Under the pieces are notes generated by a model, which was given only the letters and a program-made list of their open reading frames with translations, searched no databases and had not been told where the DNA came from. A DNA stretch of 46,666 nt. Origin: Pseudomonadota bacterium. GTDB taxonomy: Bacteria; Pseudomonadota; Gammaproteobacteria; Burkholderiales; Sulfuriferulaceae. The DNA is taken from the NCBI GenBank assembly GCA_021795395.1, contig JAJYPN010000021.1, positions 1 through 46,666 of the forward strand, read 5' to 3'. Positions 26,754 to 28,510 of the stretch are shown piece by piece (position 1 is the first letter of the stretch; every line of letters starts with the position of its first letter). The position numbers and the translations under genes are program-made.

Positions 26754-26761
26754 GAATGCAG
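26754..26761 (+). repeat. Left target-site duplication
   Basis: GAATGCAG directly abuts the left inverted repeat and is repeated exactly at 28503-28510 next to the right inverted repeat. A perfect 8-base duplication shows that the whole segment between was inserted by transposition, and recently enough for the duplication to be unchanged. Confidence 0.88.
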
Positions 26762-26782
26762 GGTAGTGTCTCAGTTTGAAAT
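26762..26782 (+). repeat. Left terminal inverted repeat
   Basis: 21 bases; all match the right repeat once a 4-base CTCA insertion (or duplication) in the right copy is allowed. Confidence 0.88.
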
Positions 26783-26791
26783 CGTCACGAC

Positions 26792-26821
26792 TTGACGAAA
26801 ATATGCACAAGTGCATATCAT
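26792..26821 (+). promoter_or_regulatory. Cargo promoter with overlapping palindrome
   Basis: The -35 box TTGACG (26792-26797) and -10 box TATCAT (26816-26821) are 18 bases apart. The perfect inverted repeat ATATGCAC-AA-GTGCATAT (26801-26818) fills the spacer and overlaps the -10 box, an ideal repressor site. The expected start of transcription, about 26828, coincides with the ATG at 26829, so the message could be leaderless. The small basic protein encoded next is a candidate autorepressor, which is a guess. Confidence 0.5.
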
Positions 26822-26828
26822 TAGCGTC

Positions 26829-27074
26829 ATGCCTAAACGCTCAAGCATGGGGCGGCTAGACCTCAATCAACTAGCCAAGCGGATTGTCGATGAAGCTACG
26901 AACGATTCGCCGAAGCCTGAACAGCCAGAGAAAAATCCAGCTGCTGTTGCGCTCGGCCGCCTTGGCGGCATCAAAGGAGGTGCCGCTAGAGCAGCGAAAC
27001 TGAGTCCAACGATGCGTTCCGAAATAGCCAGGAATGCCGCTGAAAAACGCTGGGAAAAATCAAGGAGCAAGTAA
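26829..27074 (+). CDS. Small basic Ala/Arg-rich protein (passenger gene 1)
   Basis: Encodes 81 residues from ATG 26829 (MPKRSSMGRLDLNQLAKRIVDEA); a start six codons upstream inside the operator palindrome is less likely. The second half, NPAAVALGRLGGIKGGAARAAKL followed by RSEIARNAAEKRW, is a motif recurring in small hypothetical proteins of proteobacteria and phages. It resembles lysine/arginine-rich nucleic-acid binding tails. The function is unknown; DNA or RNA binding is plausible from charge. It lies 9 bases before the SDH-like gene and probably shares its transcript. Confidence 0.75.
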   Translation: MPKRSSMGRLDLNQLAKRIVDEATNDSPKPEQPEKNPAAVALGRLGGIKGGAARAAKLSPTMRSEIARNAAEKRWEKSRSK

Positions 27075-27083
27075 GGATGATTG

Positions 27084-27916
27084 ATGAGCGAAAATGACAA
27101 AATGATATCGGCAGCAAATGAACTATCTAATGCCTGCGATTGTGATGTAATGATCATTAATGGCGATATTTACCCACTATTACAAAATATGGTTATTCGC
27201 GAATCAAGAAAAGAAAAAACAAAAAGAAAACGTTGGTTTTTCTTTTGGCTACTTCTGGCGGATTGGCTGATTCTGCGTATCGGATTTCAAAGGCCATTCA
27301 GGATAATTACGAATACGCTTCTGCTATCATTTCTGGATGGTGCAAGAGTGCTGGAACGCTATGTGTCATCGGCGCAAATGAAGTGGTTATGGACGATGAG
27401 GCTGAATTGGGTCCGCTGGATGTTCAAATTGCAAGGAAAGATGAGCTAGGCGAGCGCGATTCAGGGCTTGTTCTAAGTGAGGCTTTATCTAATTTGGAGC
27501 ACCACGCTTTTTCTCTGTTTGAGAATTTTTTCCTGCAAATAAAAACGCGTAGTGACGGTGCTATAACGTTTAAAACAGCTACGGAAATATCAGCTCAAGT
27601 TACAAACGGATTGTTTGAGCCAATCTACAAACAAATTGATCCCAATAAAATTGGTGAGGCCGCAAGGTCGTTGGCAATTGCCGAAGCCTATGGAAGCAGA
27701 TTAAATATCTTGGGGAAAAATTTGAAAAATAATGCGCTGTATAATCTAACTGTTGGTTATCCTTCGCATGGATTTGTTATTGATCGTCGCGAGGCTGGTG
27801 AGTTATTCAGGAAGGTCAGGGCACCAAACCAGTATGAGGCGGTACTAATTGACGAGCTAGGATCAATTGCTGGACACCCTGGCGGTGAACCTTTGGTTAG
27901 TTATTTGAATTCTTAG
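27084..27916 (+). pseudogene. SDH/ClpP-like serine peptidase, frameshifted (passenger gene 2)
   Basis: Two overlapping frames together make one protein of the serine dehydrogenase proteinase (SDH_sah, ClpP-fold) family. The first frame gives MIINGDIYPLLQN (start ATG 27084 with AAGGA upstream). The second, one base back, gives TLVFLLATSGGLADSAYRI. In the second frame the family patterns follow: GWCKSAGTLCVIGANEVVM, with the probable nucleophile Ser in CKSAGT, and ELGPLDVQ. The shift must occur in the purine-rich run at 27205-27232. Joined length is about 277 residues. It may be dead, or rely on ribosomal slippage. Related proteins are membrane-associated or cytosolic peptidases of unclear role. 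Confidence 0.75.
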
Positions 27917-27926
27917 GAGAAAGTTA

Positions 27927-28112
27927 ATGAAACAGGAAACAAGGACAACGGCAAGCAAGTTGCCAAGGAAAAAACCGTCCGTAAAACCAGCGGTAATGGA
28001 GTCCGTGGAGAGTCTGCAGGAAATCCTACTGCGTGAACGACTGACTCCTAGAATCTTCATTGGGGCCAAAGGGGTTAATATATCCAGATTCAATTCATGC
28101 AAGTCTAAATAG
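27927..28112 (+). CDS. Small Lys/Arg-rich protein (passenger gene 3)
   Basis: Encodes 61 residues (MKQETRTTASKLPRKKPSVKP ...). The ribosome-binding site AGGAGA lies 7 bases before the ATG, and the gene begins 11 bases after the peptidase gene, so it looks like a real last gene of the passenger operon. The N-terminal 25 residues are basic and probably disordered; the rest includes a helical stretch, VESLQEILLRERL. No family is recognised. Confidence 0.6.
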   Translation: MKQETRTTASKLPRKKPSVKPAVMESVESLQEILLRERLTPRIFIGAKGVNISRFNSCKSK

Positions 28113-28127
28113 ATTCATCGTTAAATG

Positions 28128-28152
28128 AAAAAAGCCCCTGCGGGGTTTTTTT
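28128..28152 (+). terminator. Terminator of the passenger operon
   Basis: A run of A, then GCCCC, a short TGC loop, GGGG and seven T form a classic intrinsic terminator 16 bases after the last passenger gene. Confidence 0.8.
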
Positions 28153-28489
28153 GGTGTTGGCGATACTTAACCGCCATGTCAACAGCGAGCCTGATTTTGA
28201 TAAAATCTCAACAAGCCATGTTAAACGCCAGCACCTGACTATGTGTATGAGCATGCATCGATTCACATGGCTGACGAGCGCCTTTAGCAAAAAAATCAAA
28301 AACTTGCGCATGTTGTTGCGTTTTATTTCGTATATTACGATTTCGGGCGGATTCACAAGACACTGCGTGTTATCCCGGCAATGGAAGCGGGATTGTCAGT
28401 CAGGCTGGACGCCGGAGGAAATCGCTGGACTTGATCCAGAACCAGAGGCAAAGAAACGCGGCTCATACAAAAAGAAAATTTCAAACTGA
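28151..28489 (+). pseudogene. DDE transposase C-terminal remnant
   Basis: Fragments of one protein appear in two frames. ISTSHVKRQHLTMCMSMHRF followed by TSAFSKKIKNL is in the first. HVVAFYFVYYDFGRIHKTLR, then VIPAMEAGLSVRL, is in the second from 28309. WTPEEIAGLDPEPEAKKRG is back in the first from 28406 to the TGA at 28487. This is the C-terminal third of transposases with the NFVRIHKTLRVTPAMAAG pattern found in IS1/IS1595-like elements. At least two indels are present and the N-terminal two thirds, including the first catalytic Asp residues, are absent. Any transposition must have used an enzyme supplied in trans or predates the decay. Confidence 0.75.
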
Positions 28490-28502
28490 GTGAGACACTA
28501 CC
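28478..28502 (-). repeat. Right terminal inverted repeat
   Basis: 25 bases, the inverse of 26762-26782 with CTCA duplicated. It contains the stop codon of the transposase remnant (28487-28489). Confidence 0.88.
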
Positions 28503-28510
28503 GAATGCAG
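28503..28510 (+). repeat. Right target-site duplication
   Basis: GAATGCAG, identical to 26754-26761. Confidence 0.88.

Follow-up and report, generated by a model that had tools for sequence, protein, structure and literature searches.

The window analysed here is a stretch of 46,666 nucleotides (contig JAJYPN010000021.1 of assembly GCA_021795395.1) from a bacterium of the Sulfuriferulaceae. Within it, a segment of 1741 bp (positions 26762-28502) is bounded by terminal inverted repeats (TIRs) and an exact 8-bp duplication. The features, with the basis for each, are as follows.

26754-26761, no strand: left copy of the target-site duplication (GAATGCAG); direct reading of the sequence
26762-26782, + strand: left TIR, in the form of the family; complementarity and comparison with relatives
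26829-27074, + strand: small basic protein of 81 amino acids (NQLAK...GGxKGGxARA...RW), proposed core gene; translation, homologues in 59/60 elements and alignment
27084-27220, + strand: beginning of the SDH/ClpP-like peptidase gene in the first frame, with an approximate end; weak tblastn match over the N-terminal 49 amino acids
27203-27916, + strand: remainder of the predicted peptidase gene, second frame; Pfam SDH_protease match (E 1.4e-9) and frame analysis
27927-28112, + strand: ORF of 61 codons following the peptidase gene, a possible small partner; ORF and possible Nitrosomonas communis relative
28151-28489, + strand: IS1-type transposase remnant, C-terminal, with further frame changes; profile match (E 6e-16)
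28478-28502, - strand: right TIR with four extra bases; complementarity and comparison with relatives
28503-28510, no strand: right copy of the target-site duplication (GAATGCAG); direct reading of the sequence

The original prediction described TIRs, a perfect 8-base duplication and a length of 1741 bases. All three are confirmed, with GAATGCAG exactly at both flanks. The TIRs start GGTAGTGTCTCA and their paired arms, of 13 and 12 bases, are each 100% complementary. The left end matches relatives in form; the right end is four bases longer than theirs. The description of a mobile element that has recognisable ends and carries a peptidase is likewise borne out.

The peptidase gene occupies two frames, and the break between them falls in an A-rich stretch around positions 27200-27232. 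The first 49 amino acids match peptidase N-termini weakly (tblastn, best E 0.006). The remainder matches Pfam PF01972 above the cut-off and NCBIfam NF047768 at E 6.9e-12, both in the region of the nucleophile, and it retains the conserved serine of the CKSAGT block. The frame-broken gene specifies a predicted peptidase of the SDH type. The break could be a sequencing error or, given the A-rich stretch, slippage. A programmed frameshift across the peptidase family is unlikely because single-frame relatives exist, for example in N. communis. The 61-codon ORF has a possible relative that follows the peptidase gene of N. communis (38% across 42 amino acids, E 0.003, among the fetched loci only).

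The transposase remnant aligns from residue 181-193 or so of relatives of 280-300 amino acids. Some 180-190 N-terminal residues, out of about 280, are gone, and what is left changes frame again. The DDE catalytic triad, whose residues we take to lie in conserved blocks such as ERQNLTM, is incomplete; the C-terminal part alone is present, and another residue stands in place of the conserved E in the ERQNLTM block. As it stands, the window copy is a fossil: its peptidase is frameshifted, about two thirds of the transposase is lost and the right end is altered.

An operon with its own promoter and terminator had also been proposed. The basic ORF, the peptidase, the 61-codon ORF and the C-terminal transposase piece are all in place, but the frame break means that the operon is not intact. 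Promoter-like sites in the element (6, compared to 3.1 with a standard deviation of 1.8 in shuffles) were not clearly above chance. A hairpin followed by a T-run can be seen by eye at about 28134-28152, but the scan did not report it.

The transposase and its relatives

The original prediction favoured an IS1595-like transposase. The domain test was run on an intact homologue, not on the broken remnant. Among 100 relatives searched, the closest DNA match to the remnant was an intact ORF of 280 amino acids in a genome from the host's order (70% across about 220 bp; 57% over 42 amino acids at the protein level). This homologue passes the Pfam DDE_Tnp_IS1 model (25.4 bits, cut-off 24.1). With the NCBIfam IS1 model it scores 48.1 bits, under the cut-off of 100, so membership of IS1 is distant. 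Neither Pfam nor NCBIfam gave an IS1595 model at E ≤ 1, and DDE_Tnp_IS1595 membership was rejected. By these profile comparisons, the window transposase is classed as IS1-type and not IS1595. Four of the five plasmid homologues opened carry the label "IS1 family transposase". The IS1-family trait of TIRs with an 8-9 bp duplication is also found here, with 8 bp in the window and in 59/60 delimited elements.

Transposases of this type were found in 4/150 relatives (E ≤ 1e-20), 5/369 genomes of the class and 17/398 genomes of the phylum (E ≤ 1e-40, partial and distant copies included). Searches also identified 9/72,556 plasmid records (E ≤ 1e-30) and 1/50,697 phage records, the latter at 33% identity. 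Viral contigs contained 177 relatives, of which the best 80 were retained for locus analysis. A blind scan around transposase loci, for TIRs of 18 bp and duplications of 8 or 9 bp, delimited 42 of these 80 loci. When right flanks were swapped between loci, 0, 0, 0, 0 and 1 of up to 80 were delimited. The scan also delimited 9 of the 18 host-genome loci fetched, and further elements in plasmids; 38/80 viral loci and 9/18 host-genome loci were left undelimited. The elements from viral contigs, plasmids and genomes, with that of the window, make up a set of 60. The family thus occurs in chromosomes, plasmids and viral contigs.

The 60 elements range in size from 1323 to 4254 bp (median 3075). The duplication is an exact 8 bp in 59 and extends to 9 bp in none. 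The exception, L122, lacks an exact duplication but was retained. Two pairs represent the same insertion (L172 and L174 are identical; L190 and L191 are equal in size and duplication). Therefore, the set contains 58 distinct insertions. The two ends of one element are identical over the first 12 bases in 56/60 cases. Between elements the motif varies after GGTAGTG (GGTAGTGTCTCA, GGTAGTGGGTCA and others). This pattern of agreement within and variation between elements looks as if each transposase fits its own ends. The Acidiphilium element (L115, 6883-7721) interrupts the 3' terminal part of a gene with a RES domain, next to an Xre/MbcA/ParS antitoxin gene.

We searched related replicons for empty sites. 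Each element, and one copy of its duplication, was removed in silico and the joined flanks were used as the query. The joined Mesorhizobium loti flanks matched in one piece, over 600/600 positions, in Mesorhizobium sp. AR07 (97.8%) and M. huakuii (97.5%). The Acidiphilium multivorum flanks likewise gave a one-piece match over 600/600 positions, in A. cryptum JF-5 and a second A. multivorum plasmid (99.0%). The junctions read contained a single 8-bp copy, the AR07 one differing by one base and that of JF-5 by none. Both elements are plasmid-borne and their empty sites are in related plasmids. The empty site of the window insertion was not shown because relatives do not share the left flank. In 18 genomes of the genus, all with rpsT, this flank is not conserved beside rpsT. 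The AraC gene matched 2/18 of these genomes, one being its own.

The basic protein and the cargo genes

A search profile for the basic protein, built from five rows, found it in 59/60 elements whatever the cargo. It is encoded 5' of the transposase in 59/59 and on the same strand in 57/59, and the median distance of its gene from the outermost base of the left repeat is 100 bases. A stricter ORF-based search recovered the protein in 48/51 elements. As a control, 490,234 flanking bases outside the elements were searched and gave one match. In viral loci the protein was found within 4 kb of the transposase in 75/80 cases, including 34/38 undelimited loci. It was found at 14/18 host-genome loci; of the four without it, two have distant transposases, one is truncated and one lies near a contig end. 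The original prediction treated the basic protein as cargo. Its presence in 59/60 elements regardless of what else is carried does not sustain this. Therefore, the protein looks like a core gene of the family.

We compared distance matrices for signs of co-divergence. The basic protein correlated with the transposase (r = 0.41), but so did the XRE-ImmA cargo (r = 0.54), and core and cargo were not separated. Co-divergence was thus set aside as proof of a core role. The case for a core gene rests on universality and position. The protein has no Pfam model above the cut-off. Its predicted fold, of four helices (mean pLDDT 73), had no match in the PDB. We suggest that it assists or regulates transposition. 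Its recurrence, with no Pfam model above the cut-off, poses a clear question about its role. Two P63C-type proteins (L113 70-1107 and L168 4833-5912, both - strand) have an N-terminus that resembles the C-terminal half of the basic protein, possibly a fused form. For L168 the E values are 2e-19 for P63C and 3e-6 for the basic profile; for L113 the likeness is by eye only.

The nearest relative of the window peptidase (66% identical) is from N. communis, where the gene is not in a recognised element. We fetched the loci of the best 80 of 168 confirmed relatives. A blind search for flanking repeats with a duplication picked two of these, from Omnitrophica (2450 bp) and Rhodospirillales (2495 bp). 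Both have the end motif of the window and, as in the window, the order basic protein, peptidase, transposase; in both, the IS1-type transposase is intact. A motif search added an element in Chiayiivirga (4151 bp) and, in Albidovulum, a remnant with a single end. A minority of the peptidase loci show the association; among the best 80 of 168 loci, a transposase piece was found in 6 and the basic protein in 7. Genuine SDH cargo is present in five of the 60 elements (the window, L043, L059, L098 and L188). L115 and L171 were dropped, with tree branches of length 10 that make them remote at best. L122 was not counted, having joined the SDH cluster through BLAST linkage only. A tree of 87 rows mixes element-borne and free-standing SDH genes, with at least four changes of label, one of them maybe due to the remote L115 and L171. 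The SDH gene therefore entered these elements on more than one occasion.

Some further observations concern SDH genes in general. The window's own genome has an intact SDH-type gene on contig C51 (L002 892-1881, - strand). This is 52% identical to that of the window, has a small ORF behind it and is outside any recognised element. At 63/80 loci (L030-L109, an uncontrolled count), a short ORF on the + strand either overlaps the SDH stop codon or comes after it; its sequence is very variable. By eye, free-standing SDH genes lie next to phage-type repressor-like helix-turn-helix genes at L030 (2457-4886), L008 (3141-4891) and L009 (2991-4813). The Methylovorus plasmid pMsip02 (L007, 9.8 kb) has an SDH-type gene beside zonular-occludens-domain and capsid genes and an integrase, and is apparently filamentous-phage-like.

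The cargo between the proposed core genes is interchangeable. ORFs of at least 90 amino acids, called mechanically in 51 elements, fell into 63 clusters; most are single and many of the ORFs are probably not genes. The commonest cluster (14 of 51 elements, two being the same insertion) consists of proteins that combine a helix-turn-helix with a peptidase domain of M78 (ImmA-like) type. Next is a 160-amino-acid neighbour of the XRE-ImmA-type protein (9 of 51). The largest cargo ORF of each of 57 elements was scanned against PADLOC (E ≤ 1e-20), giving 10 matches to PD-Lambda-2_B and 8 to RmrA (RosmerTA). At that threshold the two models did not overlap in two proteins inspected singly, so the sum is probably 18 and at least 10. 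For comparison, the largest flanking ORF of each of 56 elements was scanned; 13 models were matched, each by a single ORF (DinG, Cas9, methylases, DruM), an imperfect control in that many flanks are viral. As possible RosmerTA partners, cargo proteins of 205 and 160 amino acids were tested and had no PADLOC match.

One element of 4.1 kb contains both genes of a complete PD-Lambda-5 system (1.5e-123 and 3.4e-110). Other cargo matched HEC-04-like (6.6e-53) and SoFic (1.4e-48) models, and there are HigB-like, HipA-like, SocA/Panacea, NYN, DNA methylase, P63C and GNAT genes. In four elements there is a protein with a predicted fold (pLDDT 64, alignment of four rows) similar to proteasome beta subunits and Anbu (best E 3.0e-10). 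By resemblance, a good part of the cargo thus appears to consist of known defence or toxin-antitoxin modules. The five proteins of the window gave no PADLOC family at E ≤ 1, and the L188 peptidase gave no PADLOC match. The window peptidase module is, by association only, a candidate immune or regulatory module.

The cargo might instead be random hitchhiking DNA of the transporter-IS type, with no role in defence. Its diversity, with most of the 63 mechanical clusters single, is what such DNA would give, and the SDH peptidase has no defence annotation. We find this doubtful in light of the 10 PD-Lambda-2_B and 8 RmrA matches among 57 cargo ORFs, compared to at most one per model among 56 flanking ORFs, and of a two-gene PD-Lambda-5 system inside a single element. 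Another option is a regulatory role for the peptidases, directed at the element itself or at resident phages (for instance through repressor cleavage), rather than action against phage or toxin. M78/ImmA-type peptidases fused to helix-turn-helix domains are common cargo, and free-standing SDH genes of Proteus and Nitrosomonas lie near phage-type repressors with peptidase-like tails (by eye). However, the majority of elements carry no peptidase, and we rate this option as somewhat unlikely too.

Origin of the window copy

We put at about 0.93 the probability that the window segment is a decayed member of a compact, IS1-type family of cargo transposons. Intact members have TIRs starting GGTAGTG, an 8-bp duplication, an upstream basic helical protein and an IS1-type DDE transposase of about 280 amino acids. 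Cargo genes sit between or beside the basic and transposase genes. The transposase would act on the GGTAGTG ends and cut the target with a stagger of 8 bp, as the duplication and the empty sites suggest. The basic protein would be an accessory in transposition, and the cargo would benefit the host or replicon, often against phages. The window element would have arrived as a unit of about 2.4 kb, comprising the basic gene, the SDH/ClpP-like peptidase with its small partner ORF, and the transposase. After insertion it decayed, with most of the transposase lost, the peptidase frame broken and four bases gained in the right end. The peptidase may have acted in immunity or toxin-antitoxin control, like neighbouring cargo types. 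Siblings with their own intact transposase measure 2450 and 2495 bp; hence, the 1741 bp of the window element are best read as an internal deletion derivative.

The original prediction was of a non-autonomous cargo unit, moved as such and mobilised in trans by a transposase encoded elsewhere. In its favour, the ends are recognisable and the element's own transposase is useless. Against this, the genome (92.8% complete) contained no transposase of the family at E ≤ 1e-20, and neither the second copies nor the full-length transposase looked for were found. There is one copy of the element and of the ends pattern, the only other match being the SDH paralogue on contig C51. Moreover, the right end is altered, siblings encode their own transposase and the remnant is placed where siblings have the gene. 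With no family transposase in the genome, and the copy in a fossil state, mobilisation in trans is unsupported and we consider it most improbable. Chance repeats or an assembly artefact, for which one might cite the 57 contigs of the assembly and the frame break in an A-rich stretch, can be dismissed, being refuted for the family by the swap control (0-1 of 80 versus 42) and by two empty sites.

For the family of IS1-type cargo transposons as a whole, we tentatively propose miniature immunity shuttles, in which a core of transposase and basic helper would swap in single defence or toxin-antitoxin modules of 1-2 kb. The SDH cargo with its small partner, and the proteasome/Anbu-like cargo, would then be unrecognised proteolytic immune systems. 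We hold this broader proposal at a little under even odds. Accounts of how single defence genes move centre mostly on large carriers, among them prophages, integrative elements and Tn7-like transposons. A 3-kb transposon, or thereabouts, with one module as recurrent cargo would offer such genes a simple route between genomes. The ends are also a tool, as any sequence enclosed by two GGTAGTG ends and an 8-bp duplication can be taken as a candidate module with defined limits. Therefore, the function of unannotated cargo (the SDH peptidase, the proteasome-like proteins and small partners) is directly testable.

Comparison with known systems

We found no paper on the IS1-type cargo family in the open-licence literature, which is weak evidence of novelty. 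As far as that literature shows, the recurrent basic protein, the bounded and defence-rich cargo and the peptidase cargo are new; the elements may overlap with ISfinder groups of IS1. Classic IS1 measures about 0.77 kb and has two ORFs that overlap, and the ISfinder group ISMhu11 of IS1 has long members. The elements described here share 8-bp duplications with the IS1 family, and the transposase homologue passes the Pfam IS1 cut-off. They differ in having a single ORF of 280 amino acids, a size of 1.3-4.3 kb, extra genes and GGTAGTG ends, and in scoring below the NCBIfam IS1 cut-off.

The window peptidase is similar to Clp-fold serine proteinases of the SDH family in its PF01972 and NF047768 matches over the nucleophile region. 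Conversely, it scores 45 bits against an NCBIfam cut-off of 250 and had no PDB relative at E ≤ 1. With the IS1595 family and Merlin the elements share 8-bp duplications, ends starting GG and passengers in some members; the diagnostic DDE_Tnp_IS1595 domain was not found in the homologue studied here. Toxin-antitoxin passengers are found in Tn3-family transposons (PMC7157771). The presence of such modules within a transposon is common to both, but the Tn3 family has a different transposase, and the elements here are a few kb at most with one or few cargo genes. Insertion sequences with passenger genes are termed transporter IS (tIS) in PMC7986276, which cites Siguier et al. (2009) on IS1595 and IS1. 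The elements described here likewise have passenger genes enclosed by IS-type ends. They are set apart by a basic protein that recurs in almost all members and by cargo rich in matches to defence models.
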